From contig NZ_SNWP01000010.1 of the NCBI RefSeq assembly GCF_004361915.1, positions 1,514,050-1,578,049 of the forward strand: a stretch of 64,000 nucleotides of DNA. The letters run 5' to 3'. The position numbers and the translations under genes are program-made. Below are positions 15,622-27,009 of the stretch, in pieces. The stretch is from Sediminibacterium goheungense. GTDB lineage: Bacteria > Bacteroidota > Bacteroidia > Chitinophagales > Chitinophagaceae. Below the pieces are notes generated by a model. That model had not been told where the DNA came from and made no database searches. It saw only the letters and a list, made by a program, of their open reading frames with translations. Position 1 is the first letter of the stretch. Every line of letters starts with the position of its first letter.

Positions 15622-16281
15622 TTAAACCGATGGCCTGATGATACCCGCCTTTAGCGCATAGGTAATAACAGTTGCCACACTTCTGGCCCCGATCTTATCC
15701 ATGATACGAACCCGGTAACTTTCTACCGTTCTTTTACCCACGGAAAGCCTGTCGGCTATTTCCTTACTGGTGAGTTCCTTGCAAATAAGTTTTACGATCT
15801 GTTTCTCCATTTCATTCAGTGATATAAGTCCCAGGCTTTTAGGATCACTATGCTTTCCGGCAATGATTTTGGATATTTTCTCAGTCACTTCCAGCGAGAA
15901 ATAAGGTTTGTGTGTGTACACTACCCTGATGGCCTTCGACAACTCTTCGGGCCCCACACCTTTTACCAGAAAACCCAATGCACCTGCTTCCAGCATTTCA
16001 ATGATCAGGTAATCTTCGCTGAACGAACTGAGCGCCAGAATCCTGGTGCCGGGGTAGGCGCGGCACAATCTTTTGGTGGCTTCAATACCATCCAGATAAG
16101 GCATCCTGATATCTGTTATGATAACATCGGGAGCCAATTGCTTTACTTTCAGCACCAGTTCCTTTCCATCACTCACTTCTCCTTTTACCCAGAACTGCGG
16201 ATCGCGGGCCAGCATGAGCTTCAAACCCTCCCGATAGATCAGGTGATCGTCTGCTATGAGTATGGAGATTTTTTTCTGCAT
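15622..16281 (-). CDS. Response regulator, NarL/FixJ family (receiver + LuxR HTH)
   Basis: 219 residues. The receiver domain (1-125) has acidic pocket DD at 11-12, phospho-acceptor Asp57 in IITDIRMP, Ser in LALSSFS and Lys in LVKGVG. The C-terminal LuxR-type helix-turn-helix (about 150-215) reads LNEMEKQIVKLICKELTSKE and TVESYRVRIMDKIG. It would bind DNA when phosphorylated by a sensor kinase, which is not adjacent. The gene lies 23 bp downstream of recQ on the same strand and may be read through from it, though a functional link is not evident. Targets unknown. Confidence 0.92.
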   Translation of the reverse strand: MQKKISILIADDHLIYREGLKLMLARDPQFWVKGEVSDGKELVLKVKQLAPDVIITDIRMPYLDGIEATKRLCRAYPGTRILALSSFSEDYLIIEMLEAGALGFLVKGVGPEELSKAIRVVYTHKPYFSLEVTEKISKIIAGKHSDPKSLGLISLNEMEKQIVKLICKELTSKEIADRLSVGKRTVESYRVRIMDKIGARSVATVITYALKAGIIRPSV

Positions 16282-21002: not shown

Positions 21003-21929
21003 TCAGGCAGCCGTTTCTTTTGGCGCCAATGAAGGCAGGCTTTCTGTACTGACTGTTTCTGTTACGGGTGATTCTGTCATTTGCAACTGTATTCTTTTCG
21101 TGATATCATGCAAAGACGTTACCCGCTGTACGGTATATGGAATGGTATCAAGCCCGGATACAAACTTGAGGATATAATTATAAATACCAATGATATTACC
21201 CGCCAGTATGGTGGTGCCCGCCACATGATAAGTTATGAGTAAGGATAAGGTAATAACCACCATTACCATCATTTCCATGATACCAAAGTTCCATGCTTCC
21301 TGATCGCTGATGCGTATCTGCCATTTACGAAGGTTATTAAAATGACGATGAATGGCTTTTTTATCGCCTGATGAAATAATATTCACCTGCTGCTCCAGTT
21401 CATCGTTTTTGAGCTGGGTTAATTTCTTCATCCTTTTTCCATAGAAATAACTGATGGTCATTACAGGTATGAGCATGGCCAGACAAAGCAGCACTACGGT
21501 TGATTCATAGAAAAACAGCAATATCATGGAGCCCAGTATATTGTAGAGGGCTTCAATAATATATACCAGATCAAATTCCAGAAAATCAATCAGCTCTCTT
21601 GCCAGTGTTGAGTGTGCGCTTAGTTTGGATACTTCTGTTGATTTAATTTTTCTGGACAGAAACTTTGTTACCAGTGATGTATAAATAGCGGAATAGGTTC
21701 TTGTATCGTACCTGTGCCGCAATATGCCGATTACCAACCAGGAAAAATGTACAGCGGATAAGATGATAAGCCCACGGTAAGAACCCTGCATCAGATCATT
21801 AATGGCAACACCGAGAAAGAAGGGACGCAATAAGGCACCCGTCATCTCCAGCGAAAATAAAAACCAGGTGATACCCAGTCTTATTTTATGCACTTTCATT
21901 AGTTCTTTCAATACATTCATTTCTAACAT
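21003..21929 (-). CDS. ABC-exporter-like six-TM domain protein without ATPase domain
   Basis: About 308 residues from the ATG at 21929, preceded by GAAAGG six bases upstream; an earlier start would add an unlikely leader. Hydrophobic segments at roughly 20-40, 45-65, 120-140, 145-165, 230-250 and 255-275 give the layout of a type IV ABC exporter membrane domain (ABC six-TM), including the coupling-helix-like stretch between TM2 and TM3. The protein ends without Walker A, signature or Walker B motifs, so it is a TMD-only protein. It lies 106 bp downstream of the ATP-grasp/SET fusion on the same strand and could export the cluster's product with an ATPase encoded elsewhere, or be a non-transport membrane protein. 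Function uncertain. Confidence 0.65.
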   Translation of the reverse strand: MLEMNVLKELMKVHKIRLGITWFLFSLEMTGALLRPFFLGVAINDLMQGSYRGLIILSAVHFSWLVIGILRHRYDTRTYSAIYTSLVTKFLSRKIKSTEVSKLSAHSTLARELIDFLEFDLVYIIEALYNILGSMILLFFYESTVVLLCLAMLIPVMTISYFYGKRMKKLTQLKNDELEQQVNIISSGDKKAIHRHFNNLRKWQIRISDQEAWNFGIMEMMVMVVITLSLLITYHVAGTTILAGNIIGIYNYILKFVSGLDTIPYTVQRVTSLHDITKRIQLQMTESPVTETVSTESLPSLAPKETAA

Positions 21930-22035
21930 AAAAAACCTTTCAATCAAATAATTGTCTGCACCGATAGCATGCACCGGCATTAACTATTGTTCATGGATGT
22001 GGGTTAGTACTTGGACAATGATTTGCTGCCCTGGT

Positions 22036-23505
22036 TTAAGAGCGTTGTTGTTCTTCTCTTCTGGTAACGGTATTACCGGGTTTGCCGGTGATCCATTTTC
22101 TACAGCTTTGGGTTCCGCATTGGCATTGAAAGGGCTCCATGTGTTCATCCAGAAAGTCGGCGTAATCGAGGGTTAGTTCTTCGCCTTTTTGAATGGATCG
22201 GATGGCTTTTACATTCAAACCATCATAAGCAGTGTTGGGTTCGCAACTATGGTTTTGGGGAGCCCATGCCAGTGGATCATTATCCCAGAGCAAAAATACT
22301 TCATTACTCAGGGGATACGCATATCGACGGAAAGTTTCTTTTTCAACATCGTTCCAGTGCTGTTCTACATAACGCCTGGTAACTATGCGTTGTGAGCGTC
22401 CCTCACCTTTGAATACCAATTCATTACACATGATGTTTCGGGTTGCACAAATGCCATAGCCTGCCAGTGCATTGCCCCTGACTTCATAATTTTTCTGCAT
22501 GCGTAAATGCCTGGCAATTCCTTCCCGGATCATGTGCCGCAGAAAACCGGCCTGTCCGATACCATCATATTGTAAAATATAATCTGCCGAGCCTTCGTAT
22601 CCATTGGTGTAAAAAACGGAGCAGGTAAAATTGATTTCCAGAAAATAGAGTACACCTTTTTCATCCATCCTGAAATCGAGACGCGCATAACCAATACCGT
22701 TAAATGCTTTGAAAATTTTCTGTGCCGCCTCTCTTAATCCTTGATTGATGGATGAATCGCTACAGGGAATATTGGCTGCAGGATGGAGTGCAGATGTTTT
22801 GAGTTCATAGGTTTTGAAAGCATACCCCTCCGGAAACATAAATTCAACAGGCTGAAAAGTAGTAGCGGTATGGCCATCTTCATTAGCGGCAATCAATACT
22901 GTAAACTCCCTTCCTGCAATATATTGCTCTACCAACAGCTGTGGATATTCAGGAAGCAATGTGTTGATTTTTTTGCCGAGTTCTTCTTTATTATGTACCA
23001 ACGATGCTTTATCGATACCCAGGCTATCACCTGCTTTAGACGGCTTTACAAACAAAGGAAAACCCAATGCTGCCATCGAATCTATATCGGTTGATACATC
23101 TGCCAGTATATAGGCGGGTGTTTGAACCCCTTCACAATACGCGATGTATTTCATGATTTCCTTTGAAGGATCATACAGCTGTGTATTGGGACCAGTATAA
23201 GGAAGCGCCAACAGTTCCAATGTATAAATCACATCAATAGACGGCACTTCCCATTCAAGATACCCCTCGCAGAGATTTACAAAAACATCGTAGTCTTTAT
23301 GCTGTAAATCTTTGAGTTGTTTATAGGTAGTGAGTTTGTTCAGAAAAAAATGATCAACTGTTGCACCCGGTAATAATCCACTCAGGTTTCGCGGTGGGTC
23401 GTAGGTTTTATAGTCAACATCAGTTGTTGAATAATCAGGTTGCAGCACTGCAACCTTCATTCCTGCTGCCCAGTTTGTATCGAAAGATGAATTTTGTTTT
23501 TCCAT
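22036..23505 (-). CDS. ATP-grasp ligase (D-Ala-D-Ala-ligase-like) fused to a C-terminal SET domain
   Basis: 489 residues. The N-terminal ATP-grasp part (about 15-330) shows LFVKPSKAGDSLGI (ATP-binding loop), LLVEQYIAGREFTVLI, GYARLDFRMD and the metal site LEINFTCS, as in D-Ala-D-Ala ligase relatives. The C-terminal SET domain (about 338-455) shows GNALAGYGICATRNI, the SAM/catalytic motif NHSCEPN (418-424), GEELTLDYADF, and post-SET zinc cysteines CQCGTQSC (461-468). An amide-forming enzyme is thus joined to a lysine-methyltransferase-type domain, an unusual fusion. It lies 6 bp after a second ATP-grasp gene, so the two are coupled. Likely role: ligation plus N-methylation on one small peptide or amino compound; the substrate is unknown. 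Confidence 0.85.
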   Translation of the reverse strand: MEKQNSSFDTNWAAGMKVAVLQPDYSTTDVDYKTYDPPRNLSGLLPGATVDHFFLNKLTTYKQLKDLQHKDYDVFVNLCEGYLEWEVPSIDVIYTLELLALPYTGPNTQLYDPSKEIMKYIAYCEGVQTPAYILADVSTDIDSMAALGFPLFVKPSKAGDSLGIDKASLVHNKEELGKKINTLLPEYPQLLVEQYIAGREFTVLIAANEDGHTATTFQPVEFMFPEGYAFKTYELKTSALHPAANIPCSDSSINQGLREAAQKIFKAFNGIGYARLDFRMDEKGVLYFLEINFTCSVFYTNGYEGSADYILQYDGIGQAGFLRHMIREGIARHLRMQKNYEVRGNALAGYGICATRNIMCNELVFKGEGRSQRIVTRRYVEQHWNDVEKETFRRYAYPLSNEVFLLWDNDPLAWAPQNHSCEPNTAYDGLNVKAIRSIQKGEELTLDYADFLDEHMEPFQCQCGTQSCRKWITGKPGNTVTRREEQQRS

Positions 23506-23511
23506 AACGCA

Positions 23512-24660
23512 TTACCTGACTGATGAACTTGCTGATGCTTTTTGTGTTAGCTGTTTGGTATGCCGATGAATGGCTTCACTGATAATTTCCATAATAAGGT
23601 TGGCAAAGCTCTGTTTGTTTACACGTAAAATGGCACCGATAGAAGTGAAATTTTCATCCTCGCTCAACCCGCACTGTGCATTTACTTCCAGTACATATAA
23701 TTTTCCTGTGTAGCGGTCCTGTCTTATATCAACCCTTGTATAACCTGTTCCACGAACAGCCAGAAAGGCCGATAGGCTCAGTTCTTTCAACTGTTCCTGT
23801 AGCTGCGCATCTGCTTCACGGTACTCATAGAAATTTTCATCGGCGGGCATCGGTGTTTCTTCTTCATAAATTTCCCAAAGCCTGTCGAAGGAAAGAAATT
23901 TTTCTCTCTCAGGCAAAGAAGCATGAAATACCCTTTCTACACCCTTATAAACTTTACAGTTTTGAGGTTCTGTCCAGGATCCCACAATCATGGTGGTGTA
24001 TTCCGGTCCTTCAATAAAAGTTTCTGCGATGAGTCCGTCTGCTGCAAGATCCCAGCCACGGTAACCTGCAAACATAGCTGCCACCTGTGTCTGTAGATCG
24101 GTCAGCTTATCTACCACATTCCTGATACCTACACCCATGCTGCCTCCGGAAATAGAGGGTTTCACAATAAGTGGTGAACCCAGTTTATCAAATACTTCCT
24201 GTTTTGCATCTGATGCAGCATGAATAGCGACCCATTCGGCTGTTGATACACTTGCCGTATCAAAAGCTTTTTTCATCGGTATTTTTGATGTGGTAATGGT
24301 ATAGAAATATTCATCAGCGCCCGTATAGATTAATCCGGATGCATCGAGCATTTTAACCACAGATATACCGGGTGTTCCATTGATTTCATCACCATCACAT
24401 AAATTGAGTACAACAGGTATATGGTTGCTGGTTTCCTTTTCCGCAATAATCTGTGCAATTACAGTTGCATAATCTGCCAAGGTCACCGGTTGCCATCGCC
24501 ATTGGATGTTTAATGCAGAAAATATTTTACTGTATTCAGCTATACTTTGTGAGAAGTCGTAGTAGTAATCAATATTGGGATCTTCGGTTTGCAGTGAAGG
24601 TGCCAGCACCCATACATATAAATGACTCATATTTTCTTTACTGATATCGCAGGTATCCAT
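23512..24660 (-). CDS. ATP-grasp ligase, D-Ala-D-Ala-ligase-like
   Basis: 382 residues; the ATG at residue 11 (MSHLYVWVLAPSLQ) is an alternative start at 24630. ATP-grasp features: PLIVKPSISGGSMGVGI (165-180), GLIAETFIEGPEYTTMIV (209-226), GYTRVDIRQD (306-315) and the Mg-site LYVLEVNAQCGLS (321-333). The N-terminal preATP domain includes VVLNLCDGDEINGTPG, where D-Ala-D-Ala ligases have the nucleotide/substrate loop. It is not a housekeeping Ddl: sequence and length differ, and it sits 12 bp after a SET-domain gene and 6 bp before an ATP-grasp/SET fusion. It probably activates a carboxylate by phosphorylation and joins it to an amine in a two-ligase pathway. Substrates unknown. Confidence 0.85.
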   Translation of the reverse strand: MDTCDISKENMSHLYVWVLAPSLQTEDPNIDYYYDFSQSIAEYSKIFSALNIQWRWQPVTLADYATVIAQIIAEKETSNHIPVVLNLCDGDEINGTPGISVVKMLDASGLIYTGADEYFYTITTSKIPMKKAFDTASVSTAEWVAIHAASDAKQEVFDKLGSPLIVKPSISGGSMGVGIRNVVDKLTDLQTQVAAMFAGYRGWDLAADGLIAETFIEGPEYTTMIVGSWTEPQNCKVYKGVERVFHASLPEREKFLSFDRLWEIYEEETPMPADENFYEYREADAQLQEQLKELSLSAFLAVRGTGYTRVDIRQDRYTGKLYVLEVNAQCGLSEDENFTSIGAILRVNKQSFANLIMEIISEAIHRHTKQLTQKASASSSVR

Positions 24661-24672
24661 TCTTTACAATCA

Positions 24673-25167
24673 CTATCGGTTTTGAATCTGTAACAGGATA
24701 AAACGGGTAAGGCGGTAATTTACTAACTGCGTTTCAGTCAATGATGCAGCTCCTGCTATCGTACCCAGGCATTTTACACTACCGCAATTACAGGTAAATG
24801 GTGAAGCCATCTGCCATTCTGTTGATGGATAAAAGAATACCATTTCATCATCAGGTTGAATGGAGCGTAGCGCTACCAGTTCCATTTTTTCGGTATCGAA
24901 AAAAACATTGGGTTCGCAACTATGGTTGGTATACTGTAAACATTCCGGTTCGAGTGTGATATGTTTATTCAATCCTGTTTGCAGTGTAAGATAACTGGGT
25001 GTGGTATAGGTTTCTTTGGCACTGAAAGAACAAATGATTTCTCCTTCATCAAAAAAAACTGTTGCGTGTAAAGAGTGTTGCCCTGTTGCAGGATTTCTGA
25101 ACACTTTTGCAAAGTCTGTTTTTGCAAGTTTAGGTGTTTCCGGTATCACCAGTGGTAGGGGTATCAT
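24673..25167 (-). CDS. Stand-alone small SET-domain protein (predicted lysine methyltransferase)
   Basis: 164 residues. The SET core is compact: HSLHATVFFDEGEIICSFSA, then NHSCEPN (81-87), VALRSIQPDDEMVFFYPSTE, and a post-SET zinc cluster CNCGSVKC (126-133). All SAM-binding and zinc residues expected for the family are visible, so an active methyltransferase is plausible. It closely parallels the SET part of the fusion protein two genes downstream, suggesting duplication. It is the first gene of the minus-strand cluster. SET enzymes methylate lysine side chains of proteins; whether the target here is a protein or a small product of the ATP-grasp ligases is open. Confidence 0.8.
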   Translation of the reverse strand: MIPLPLVIPETPKLAKTDFAKVFRNPATGQHSLHATVFFDEGEIICSFSAKETYTTPSYLTLQTGLNKHITLEPECLQYTNHSCEPNVFFDTEKMELVALRSIQPDDEMVFFYPSTEWQMASPFTCNCGSVKCLGTIAGAASLTETQLVNYRLTRFILLQIQNR

Positions 25168-25414: not shown

Positions 25415-25888
25415 ATGCTCAATCCTTCTCCCGATGCCGCTTTTGAAGCCTTACAGCTAACCCTTCCGCCTGCTCCTGCGCCACTGGGTGTGTACAAACC
25501 CTGTTTAATAGATGGTAATTATCTCTATCTCTCCGGTCATGGTACACTGCAAAATGATGGCACATGGATTGTAGGTATTGTAGGACTGGATATGGATAAA
25601 GAATCTGCTAAATCAGCTGCACGTCAGGTAGGATTAGCGATGCTTGCCACCATTAAAAATAAACTGGGTAGTTTCCATAAAATTAAACGGGTGATTAAAG
25701 TATTGGGTATGGTAAATGCGGTGCAGGGTTTTGCGGATCATCCTTATGTGATCAATGGCTGCAGTGAATTATTTGCTGCTATATGGGGCCCGGATCATGG
25801 TGTTGGTGTGAGAAGTGCAGTAGGCATGAGTTCTCTACCCGGGAATATTCCCGTTGAAATAGAAGCGATATTTGAATTACATACTTAA
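25415..25888 (+). CDS. RidA family (YjgF/YER057c/UK114) protein
   Basis: 157 residues. It contains LYLSGHGTLQNDG near the N-terminus, a long helix with AAR...LAMLATIKNKLGSFHKIKRV, and the C-terminal GVGVRSAVGMSSLPGNIPVEI, whose arginine and following residues form the active-site pocket in RidA proteins. RidA hydrolyses reactive enamine/imine intermediates made by PLP enzymes. It is followed 8 bp later by a PLP-dependent D-threonine-aldolase-like gene, a sensible pairing: PLP enzyme makes the imine, RidA clears it. It resembles the atypical longer RidA group rather than E. coli RidA. Confidence 0.85.
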   Translation: MLNPSPDAAFEALQLTLPPAPAPLGVYKPCLIDGNYLYLSGHGTLQNDGTWIVGIVGLDMDKESAKSAARQVGLAMLATIKNKLGSFHKIKRVIKVLGMVNAVQGFADHPYVINGCSELFAAIWGPDHGVGVRSAVGMSSLPGNIPVEIEAIFELHT

Positions 25889-25896
25889 CATGATTT

Positions 25897-27009
25897 ATGG
25901 CAGTAAAAAACTGGTTTGAACTGGCACTTGCAGACGATATCGATTCACCTGCCTTACTCGTCTATCCTGAACGGGTACAACAAAATATACAGGCTGCGAT
26001 TACAATGATGGGTGAACCAGACAGATTAAGGCCACATATTAAAACACATAAAACGGCTGAGGTAACCAGGTTGTTGATGAATGCAGGTGTGCAACAATTT
26101 AAATGTGCCACTATTGCTGAAGCCGAATTGCTGGGTATGTGTAAAGCCCCGGATGTATTGCTGGCTTATCAACCACTGGGACCCAAACTTGATCGCTTCT
26201 TTTCATTAATCGGACAATACCCTGATACAAGTTATGCTTGTGTAACAGATCATATAGCGGCTGTTACGGCTATGGCGTTGAAAGCACGTGCACAAAATCT
26301 GATATTGAATGTTTATATCGATTTAAATGTGGGCATGAACAGAACCGGTATTGCACCTGAAGATGCGATGGAGCTGGTTGATTTTTGCCTGAATGAACCT
26401 GCTATTCACTTAGCCGGCTTGCATGCATATGATGGTCATCTGCGCAATCCTGATCCTGAGCAAAGAAAAGAAGATTGTGATGAAGCTTTTGCACGGGTTA
26501 CAGATTTGCAAAACCGGATCTCCATAAAACATCCTGTTCATCTACCCATTATTGCCGGCGGTAGCCCCAGTTTTCCGATACATGCTAAACGCAAAGAAGT
26601 TATTTGCAGCCCGGGCACTTTTGTTTACTGGGACCATGGATATGCCCATGCTTTTCCGGAGCAGCCTTTTGTACATGCCGCCCTGGTAATGACGCGTATC
26701 ATCTCTTTACCTGCGCAGGGACTTATCTGCACAGACCTTGGTCATAAATCCATTGCATCTGAGAACCCGATTGATAAACGTGTTTTCTTTTTAAATGCAG
26801 ATGACCTTACCCCCGTTTCCCAGAGTGAAGAACACCTTATACTAAAAGCACCGGATCAACATACTTACAAAGTGGGTGATCTGTTGTATGGATTGCCTTA
26901 TCATATTTGTCCTACCTGTGCCTTATATGAACGCGCATTTACCATAAAAAACCATCAGAAAACAGGCGAGTGGTTACATATTGCCCGCGACCGTAAAATC
27001 ACTAACTAA
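25897..27009 (+). CDS. D-threonine aldolase / D-serine dehydratase-like PLP enzyme (fold type III)
   Basis: 370 residues. It opens with DIDSPALLVYPERVQQNI and RPHIKTHKT; Lys49 in this motif is the expected PLP-binding lysine, as in D-threonine aldolase and DSD1-type D-serine dehydratases. The alanine-racemase-like TIM barrel follows (LILNVYIDLNVGMNRTGI, HLAGLHAYDGHL). The C-terminal beta domain has GLPYHICPTCALY, whose His and Cys bind the catalytic metal in this family. It acts on D-beta-hydroxy amino acids such as D-Thr or D-Ser. It is in an apparent operon with RidA and divergent from the ATP-grasp/SET cluster, which hints that a D-amino acid or its aldehyde is part of the chemistry. The exact reaction is not decidable by eye. 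Confidence 0.85.
   Translation: MAVKNWFELALADDIDSPALLVYPERVQQNIQAAITMMGEPDRLRPHIKTHKTAEVTRLLMNAGVQQFKCATIAEAELLGMCKAPDVLLAYQPLGPKLDRFFSLIGQYPDTSYACVTDHIAAVTAMALKARAQNLILNVYIDLNVGMNRTGIAPEDAMELVDFCLNEPAIHLAGLHAYDGHLRNPDPEQRKEDCDEAFARVTDLQNRISIKHPVHLPIIAGGSPSFPIHAKRKEVICSPGTFVYWDHGYAHAFPEQPFVHAALVMTRIISLPAQGLICTDLGHKSIASENPIDKRVFFLNADDLTPVSQSEEHLILKAPDQHTYKVGDLLYGLPYHICPTCALYERAFTIKNHQKTGEWLHIARDRKITN

Follow-up and report, generated by a model that had tools for sequence, protein, structure and literature searches.

A conserved and apparently undescribed SET/ATP-grasp gene set in Bacteroidota, with a stand-alone SET protein closest to BurB

Enzymes with a SET domain are otherwise almost wholly known as protein-lysine methylases, the small-molecule exceptions named in the sources consulted being BurB and a Streptomyces homologue (PMC12542666; PMC7496086). 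BurB of Burkholderia thailandensis (172 amino acids (aa); PDB 9l4t and 9l4v) uses S-adenosylmethionine (SAM) to convert free methionine to S-methylmethionine and, according to the same two sources, belongs to the dimethylsulfoniopropionate (DMSP)/malleicyprol pathway. ATP-grasp ligases make amide bonds via acyl phosphates, which is established chemistry, and the pathways to E-64, dapdiamide and tabtoxin, which are independent of non-ribosomal peptide synthetases (NRPSs), make peptide amides with stand-alone ATP-grasp enzymes; the available sections of that account (PMC12568646) describe no SET methyltransferase. The only other protein with SET-like and ATP-grasp-type domains met in our literature search is TTLL12, which is eukaryotic, has its SET-like domain first, carries a TTL-type ligase domain and, in the sections available, showed neither methylation nor tyrosination in vitro (PMC3520985). 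Here we present a quartet of minus-strand genes from a 64,000-nucleotide stretch of the Sediminibacterium goheungense genome (contig NZ_SNWP01000010.1, positions 1,514,050 to 1,578,049; hereafter the window). The quartet comprises a stand-alone SET protein (SET1), an ATP-grasp ligase (G1), an ATP-grasp/SET fusion (FUS) and a transmembrane domain protein (TMD). The gene set is real, conserved and apparently undescribed, and among solved structures BurB is the nearest to SET1.

All four open reading frames (ORFs) were confirmed. SET1 (24673..25167, 164 aa) is separated by 12 bp from G1 (23512..24660, 382 aa), which resembles D-Ala-D-Ala ligase (Ddl), and G1 by 6 bp from FUS (22036..23505, 489 aa). 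The gap between FUS and TMD (21003..21980, a 325-aa ORF) is 55 bp with the longest TMD frame and 106 bp with an internal ATG at 21929; the latter is probably the start, because the resulting length fits the homologues of 293–313 aa in the loci fetched. The four genes and their gaps are as the initial annotation described them, with the 106 bp applying to the start at 21929. Its domain reading also holds, as every Pfam match exceeds the curated cut-off: SET in SET1 (34.2 bits), Dala_Dala_lig_C in G1 (51.2 bits), Dala_Dala_lig_C and SET in FUS (83.5 and 39.2 bits), and ABC_membrane_3 (PF13748), an ABC exporter-type transmembrane domain, in TMD (148.8 bits). FUS is 88% identical to its counterpart in a Sediminibacterium metagenome-assembled genome.

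The residues expected of active enzymes are retained across the family. Alignments were made of 54 FUS, 40 G1 and 35 SET1 sequences, the window's own included, with FUS limited to frames of 450–520 aa and incomplete frames excluded. In FUS, the ATP-grasp domain (aa 16–325; 22531..23460, minus strand) has invariant K154, R275, D277, E290 and N292, and the SET domain (aa 349–474; 22084..22461, minus strand) has invariant N418, H419 and C421 of its NHSCEPN motif (aa 418–424), D447, Y448 and the post-SET cysteines C461, C463 and C468. K167, R309, D311, E325 and N327 are invariant in G1, the last four forming the metal/catalytic motif at 23680..23736 (minus strand). In SET1, N81, C84 and P86 of the N-H-S-C-E-P-N motif (aa 81–87; 24907..24927, minus strand) are invariant and H82 and N87 nearly so; Y113, in the sequence FFYPSTEW, and the post-SET cysteines C126, C128 and C133 (24769..24831, minus strand) are also invariant. 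The intact ATP/Mg and SET motifs that had been noted in the single sequence are thus a property of the whole family. Compared with three relatives, dN/dS was 0.09–0.11 for SET1, 0.11–0.15 for G1, 0.10–0.12 for FUS and 0.07–0.10 for TMD, with the SET half of FUS, taken separately, at 0.14–0.21; these values are rough because in 9 of the 12 comparisons of whole genes dS exceeded 1. Judged by these ratios and alignments, the four genes are under purifying selection and their catalytic motifs are intact.

Among 101 genomes of the genus, FUS and G1 are present in the same 54 (counts that take in pieces at contig ends), and the gene set is therefore not a chance arrangement; the Fisher p values for co-occurrence in the genus ignore relatedness. 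G1 and FUS are the conserved core. SET1 occurs in 37 of the 101 genomes, 34 of which carry FUS, the others being G026 (69% complete), G137 (a piece of SET1) and G145 (95% complete). Where SET1 and FUS are both present (34 genomes), SET1 adjoins G1 in 15 and lies apart in 19, on another contig in 16 (possibly a broken contig in G036) and on the same contig at a distance of 56–87 kb in 3. Separation of the genes in relatives, which the initial annotation had said would speak against a cluster, was thus found for the position of SET1, but the genes still co-occur. At the level of the order, a full-length FUS match was found in 39 of 298 genomes, and at the level of the phylum in 17 of 395; 16 of the latter 395 have SET1 at E 1e-20 or better, 15 of them together with FUS. 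Families outside the order, within Bacteroidota, that carry FUS are f38, f44, f48 and f74. Outside Bacteroidota, a plasmid search and one scan for close relatives did not show the fusion, chromosomes of other phyla not having been searched otherwise. That plasmid search returned 19 records for FUS, none covering 80% of the query, and among the eight matches listed only the ATP-grasp half was matched. One genome in the order scan (G551) has a FUS-type ATP-grasp without a SET domain; at this locus (L121:7208-10249) a Schlafen/AlbA_2 protein with a HATPase_c_4 domain follows 3 bp later.

We surveyed gene order in 55 FUS loci (58 rows, from which L045, L118 and L146, each a contig already counted, were removed). 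G1 lies directly upstream of FUS on the same strand in 41, and SET1 was called in 20 of these; it is also present in L147 and L150, where gene calling missed it. In L041, SET1 and G1 form a single reading frame. The 14 loci without an upstream G1 comprise 2 contig ends, 9 loci of family f38, and genomes G355, G484 and G356. A search of 16 whole genomes with G1 met nothing but FUS itself in G355, G484 and the nine genomes of f38, and in G356 G1 adjoins SET1 on another contig, away from FUS. The order in f38 is SET1-FUS-ABC-SET3, without G1; of the nine contigs, one stops short of the ABC gene and another breaks off within SET1.

Three kinds of comparison place SET1 next to BurB. A SET1 profile searched against all solved structures ranked BurB first (77.4 bits, E 8e-21, over 131 profile positions), with the best histone enzyme at 37.4 bits, and the single SET1 sequence of the window also had BurB on top (38.2 versus 27.9 bits). 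With a predicted SET1 model (mean pLDDT 82.0), BurB chains took ranks 1–3 in Foldseek (E about 1e-9, TM 0.67–0.69; next entry E 5e-7) and reached Z 14.8 and 14.0 in VIA-align, where the next entry had Z 11.3 (rmsd 4.2 over 132). As a control, the third SET protein of the window's genome led to SETD7 and vSET, and BurB was not listed at E 0.001. SET1 and BurB have in common the NHSC-type histidine, Y124 of BurB and the Y-x-STE motif, the equivalents of BurB H93 and Y124 being kept in SET1 (numbering of PMC12542666). The two proteins differ in pathway and in that several SAM contacts of BurB are not retained in SET1; BurB itself has no ligase fused to it. SET1 forms a single clade (100/100) in a tree of 34 rows, and the SET domain of FUS falls outside its branch.

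SET1-like genes on plasmids of other phyla offer a second line of evidence. A plasmid search with SET1 gave 7 records, of which 4 were inspected (one of four from Streptomyces, and those from Eleftheria, Tabrizicola and Sphingomonas), and 3 of the 4 adjoin enzymes of amino-acid or small-molecule metabolism. The Eleftheria SET gene, which is close to BurB (E 1.7e-73), lies beside a polyketide synthase, a class-III aminotransferase and an aldehyde dehydrogenase; that of Sphingomonas lies beside an Orn/DAP/Arg-type decarboxylase; and that of Tabrizicola piscis, on a plasmid of 21 kb that is typed as conjugative, lies beside a GHMP kinase, a pyridoxal phosphate (PLP) enzyme and an alanine-racemase-fold protein. 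In the last case the genes for SET, GHMP kinase, PLP-dependent enzyme, DMT transporter and alanine-racemase-fold protein stand in a row (L203:1124-6125), which by its gene content may be a small amino-acid pathway.

Two further SET loci were met within these comparisons. Genome G347 (Bacteroidota) encodes a 617-aa fusion of SET, S-adenosylmethionine decarboxylase and spermidine synthase (L190:8468-10318), with a second, 483-aa SET protein directly downstream, the remainder of which has no Pfam or NCBIfam match; the fusion makes a SET role in polyamine metabolism possible, and our literature search found no description of such a fusion. In G403, a genome without a FUS match and with a lysine aminomutase operon, a SET1-like gene (L191:8071-8520) adjoins a gamma-glutamyltranspeptidase gene.

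Both ligases keep the ATP-grasp K, R-x-D and E-x-N residues, and they share the ATP/Mg residues and profile of Ddl-type enzymes; for FUS the fold agrees as well, all of the matches listed (50) in a Foldseek search with its model being ligases of the D-Ala-D-Ala type. They differ from Ddl-type ligases in the acceptor motif N-x-x-P-G, which is replaced by NAQCG in G1 (within an NAQCG[LI]SEDE-type sequence after the catalytic motif) and by NFTCS in FUS, and, for FUS, in the fusion to SET. The NCBIfam Ddl cut-offs are far from reached (88.6 of 243 bits, and 92 of 245.65 bits at best), and the window's genome carries a separate Ddl-like gene with N-x-x-P-G elsewhere. In a tree with long branches and a tool warning, G1 and FUS form two well-supported clades that are mutual neighbours. 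Because of the sub-cut-off scores, the absent motif and their position apart from the genome's other Ddl-like gene, G1 and FUS are predicted to be Ddl-like enzymes and not Ddl. The quality of the FUS model is moderate (mean pLDDT 73.2, built from 11 sequences; 45–84 in blocks of ten residues along the SET part), the matches listed for it are all D-Ala-D-Ala-type ligases, and nothing on the pocket of its SET domain is read from it.

The TMD protein consists of the membrane domain only, and the next gene encodes a GFO/IDH/MocA oxidoreductase, so that no nucleotide-binding domain is adjacent. Because the ATPase domain is absent, TMD, as read from its domain content, would not be an exporter on its own. 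It is an accessory gene, present in 14 of the 101 genomes of the genus, 13 of them with FUS. A complete ABC exporter follows FUS in f38, where membrane and ATPase domains are both present in the ABC gene of L104, by similarity to which the other ABC genes were named. Of the membrane export domain in the initial annotation, the domain itself thus stands and is matched by a full exporter in f38, but it lacks an ATPase and is confined to a minority of the genus.

On balance, the gene set probably serves the NRPS-independent biosynthesis of a methylated, amide-linked small molecule derived from amino acids, and the small methylated amide product proposed from the sequence alone is retained here as the best hypothesis. 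SET1 would use SAM to methylate a free amino acid, or a small amine or thioether; carboxylates would be turned into acyl phosphates, and then into one or two amide bonds, by G1 and the ATP-grasp half of FUS; and the SET half of FUS would place a further methyl group on the same substrate or on the ligated product, which would account for the fusion of ligase and methylase. Their union in one protein suggests a common substrate for ligation and methylation. Passage of the product across the membrane may be aided by an ABC-type membrane protein in some lineages; the small-molecule substrate, the sequence of the steps and export are what we infer from these genes. We favour a small amino-acid product over protein methylation because SET1 is nearest to BurB and the plasmid SET genes lie near amino-acid enzymes. 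The fusion of SET to polyamine enzymes in G347, the catalytic residues kept in both ATP-grasps, the shared occurrence of G1 and FUS, the complete exporter of f38 and the finding of no precursor-peptide family spanning the loci count in favour of the proposal as well. The lysine-type methylation that had been assumed is not upheld as stated, given that the closest solved homologue of SET1 methylates the sulfur of free methionine, and we hold with moderate confidence that the emphasis shifts from lysine-type or protein methylation to small-molecule methylation of the BurB kind.

Several observations weigh against this interpretation. The superposition of SET1 on BurB has an rmsd of 4.5 over 137/136 residues, larger than for ASH1L entries of lower Z, and the BurB SAM contacts H72, R133 and H138 correspond to L60, S122 and N127 in SET1 (residues as numbered in PMC12542666). 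BurB is described in the same source as holding methionine through main-chain atoms, and the substrate is therefore not readable from sequence. The decarboxylase, aminotransferase and dehydrogenase of the DMSP pathway were not found among the window's neighbours, nor are they common to the compared loci. The branch that unites SET1 with the plasmid SET proteins (the BurB-like Eleftheria protein included), SET3 and others has a support of only 90/75, and within it the neighbours of SET1 are the Streptomyces and G403 proteins, not that of Eleftheria. For the other SET domains BurB also ranks first, with margins too small to carry much weight: the FUS SET profile gives 59.3 bits for BurB versus 54.0 for MLL1, and the SET3 profile 44.2 bits for BurB versus 41.7 for a histone enzyme. 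The Sphingomonas SET–decarboxylase pair sits amid signalling genes, and the Streptomyces plasmid gene, flanked by genes for a polysaccharide monooxygenase and a SulP transporter, is not in an evident amino-acid setting. SET1 is missing from 20 of the 54 FUS genomes of the genus, and FUS occurs without G1 or SET1 in G355 and G484, which suggests that FUS is the minimal unit of the set. In G355 a consecutive run of genes on one strand (L102:3041-11099) encodes GSH-synthetase-like, MATCAP/QEGLA and N-formylglutamate amidohydrolase-like proteins, FUS and a gamma-glutamyltranspeptidase; this context was dropped as support because it is known from one genome only.

Other explanations draw on parts of the same evidence. 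The gene set could modify proteins, with the ATP-grasp enzymes ligating an amino acid to some protein, of which (or of another protein) the SET domains would methylate a lysine. All SET enzymes studied up to 2005 were protein-lysine methylases, as stated in the available part of PMC1282579, the FUS SET domain scores MLL1 (54 bits) near BurB (59 bits), FUS in G355 lies near a MATCAP/QEGLA peptidase-like gene, and human TTLL12 does combine SET-like and TTL-like (ATP-grasp) domains (PMC3520985). However, TTLL12 has the reverse domain order and, according to the sections available, lacks critical residues, the ATP-grasp enzymes here are Ddl-like in both Pfam and PDB profile searches, SET1 is clearly closer to BurB than to protein methylases, and no further gene for a candidate target is common to the core loci across families in the stretches fetched, which together make protein modification unlikely. 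A lysine version of the favoured proposal, with the ATP-grasp enzymes ligating lysine and the SET domains methylating the amine of its side chain, so that an N-methylated lysyl peptide results, fits the classical role of SET enzymes as lysine methylases and the company kept by related ligases. Among the best-scoring non-orthologous ATP-grasp loci of the phylum (16 loci in 15 genomes), 9 combine two ATP-grasp genes in tandem with a gene resembling lysine 2,3-aminomutase (L123, L124, L125, L126, L128, L132, L134, L135 and L137, from several Bacteroidota families), 7 of them with a GNAT acetyltransferase too. These operons resemble the gene set in pairing Ddl-like ATP-grasps with amino-acid modifying enzymes, but they have no SET gene and are not its sister group. 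We tried them as direct relatives and rejected them: their scores, about 50–90 bits versus 44–69 for Ddl, do show kinship, but the tree, with its long branches, puts FUS and G1 apart from them as mutual nearest groups. The acceptor motifs also differ, and the substrate of BurB is methionine; we give this version as little credence as protein modification. Our literature search found no description of the ATP-grasp pair/lysine 2,3-aminomutase operons among the matches listed.

A role in the cell wall, with the ligase pair making or modifying the peptidoglycan stem dipeptide, would agree with the D-Ala-D-Ala ligase profiles that match G1 and FUS and the structures that match the FUS model. We regard it as highly unlikely, as the window's genome has its other Ddl-like gene with N-x-x-P-G, the best NCBIfam score (92 of 245.65 bits) and the acceptor motif both fail to fit, and the G1/FUS pair was not found in 47 of the 101 genomes of the genus. 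Least probable of all, to a degree that we would call remote, is a graspetide-like ribosomally synthesized and post-translationally modified peptide (RiPP), in which the ATP-grasps would crosslink a ribosomal precursor. An ATP-grasp with an ABC transporter is typical of RiPP loci, as set out in the available part of PMC8939145, and four close relatives (L056:7407-7466, L057:7408-7482, L062:7643-7711 and L063:7821-7892) share a similar 19–24-aa frame, on the same strand as the operon and some 110 bp ahead of G1, which may be a leader peptide, a regulatory element or chance. Against a precursor, the ATP-grasps are of the Ddl kind and no precursor-peptide family was seen to span the loci (546 small ORFs, 60 loci); five small-ORF groups occur in at least 4 loci, all confined to close relatives (6 loci at most) and otherwise antisense to genes or between them.

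Neighbouring genes were considered as further parts. In 16 of 32 loci the first gene upstream of the core is a divergent one for a LuxR-type response regulator, in two diverged groups that are 23–34% identical (L037, L038, L046 and L048; L052, L053 and L055-L064). It was left out of the set, the window's relative (15622-16281) lying four genes downstream of the operon. The GFO/IDH/MocA, 3-keto-disaccharide hydrolase and RecQ neighbours were rejected as parts, since they follow the operon in only some loci of the genus. At 25415-27009 the window has a divergent pair encoding RidA/YjgF-like and D-serine dehydratase/3-hydroxyaspartate-aldolase-like proteins.

As the initial annotation supposed, no bacterial pathway of this composition emerged from our literature search, which found no description of a SET/ATP-grasp gene set among the matches listed; subscription papers were mostly outside its scope, and an earlier description is possible. 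Of earlier work, the amidoligase paper of Iyer et al. (2009) is the likeliest to affect priority. The co-inherited SET/ATP-grasp set, with its fused ligase-methylase in several Bacteroidota families, points to an uncharacterised metabolite, and with each enzyme below 500 residues the substrates are directly testable. A wider generalization, which we offer tentatively and consider somewhat doubtful, is that SET domains more widely methylate free amino acids or amines, and that the ATP-grasp/SET fusion of Bacteroidota is a dedicated assembly unit, ligase and methylase at once, that makes an exported sulfonium- or betaine-type dipeptide of a new NRPS-independent peptide class. If true, the SET fold would have small-molecule methylation as a second general function.

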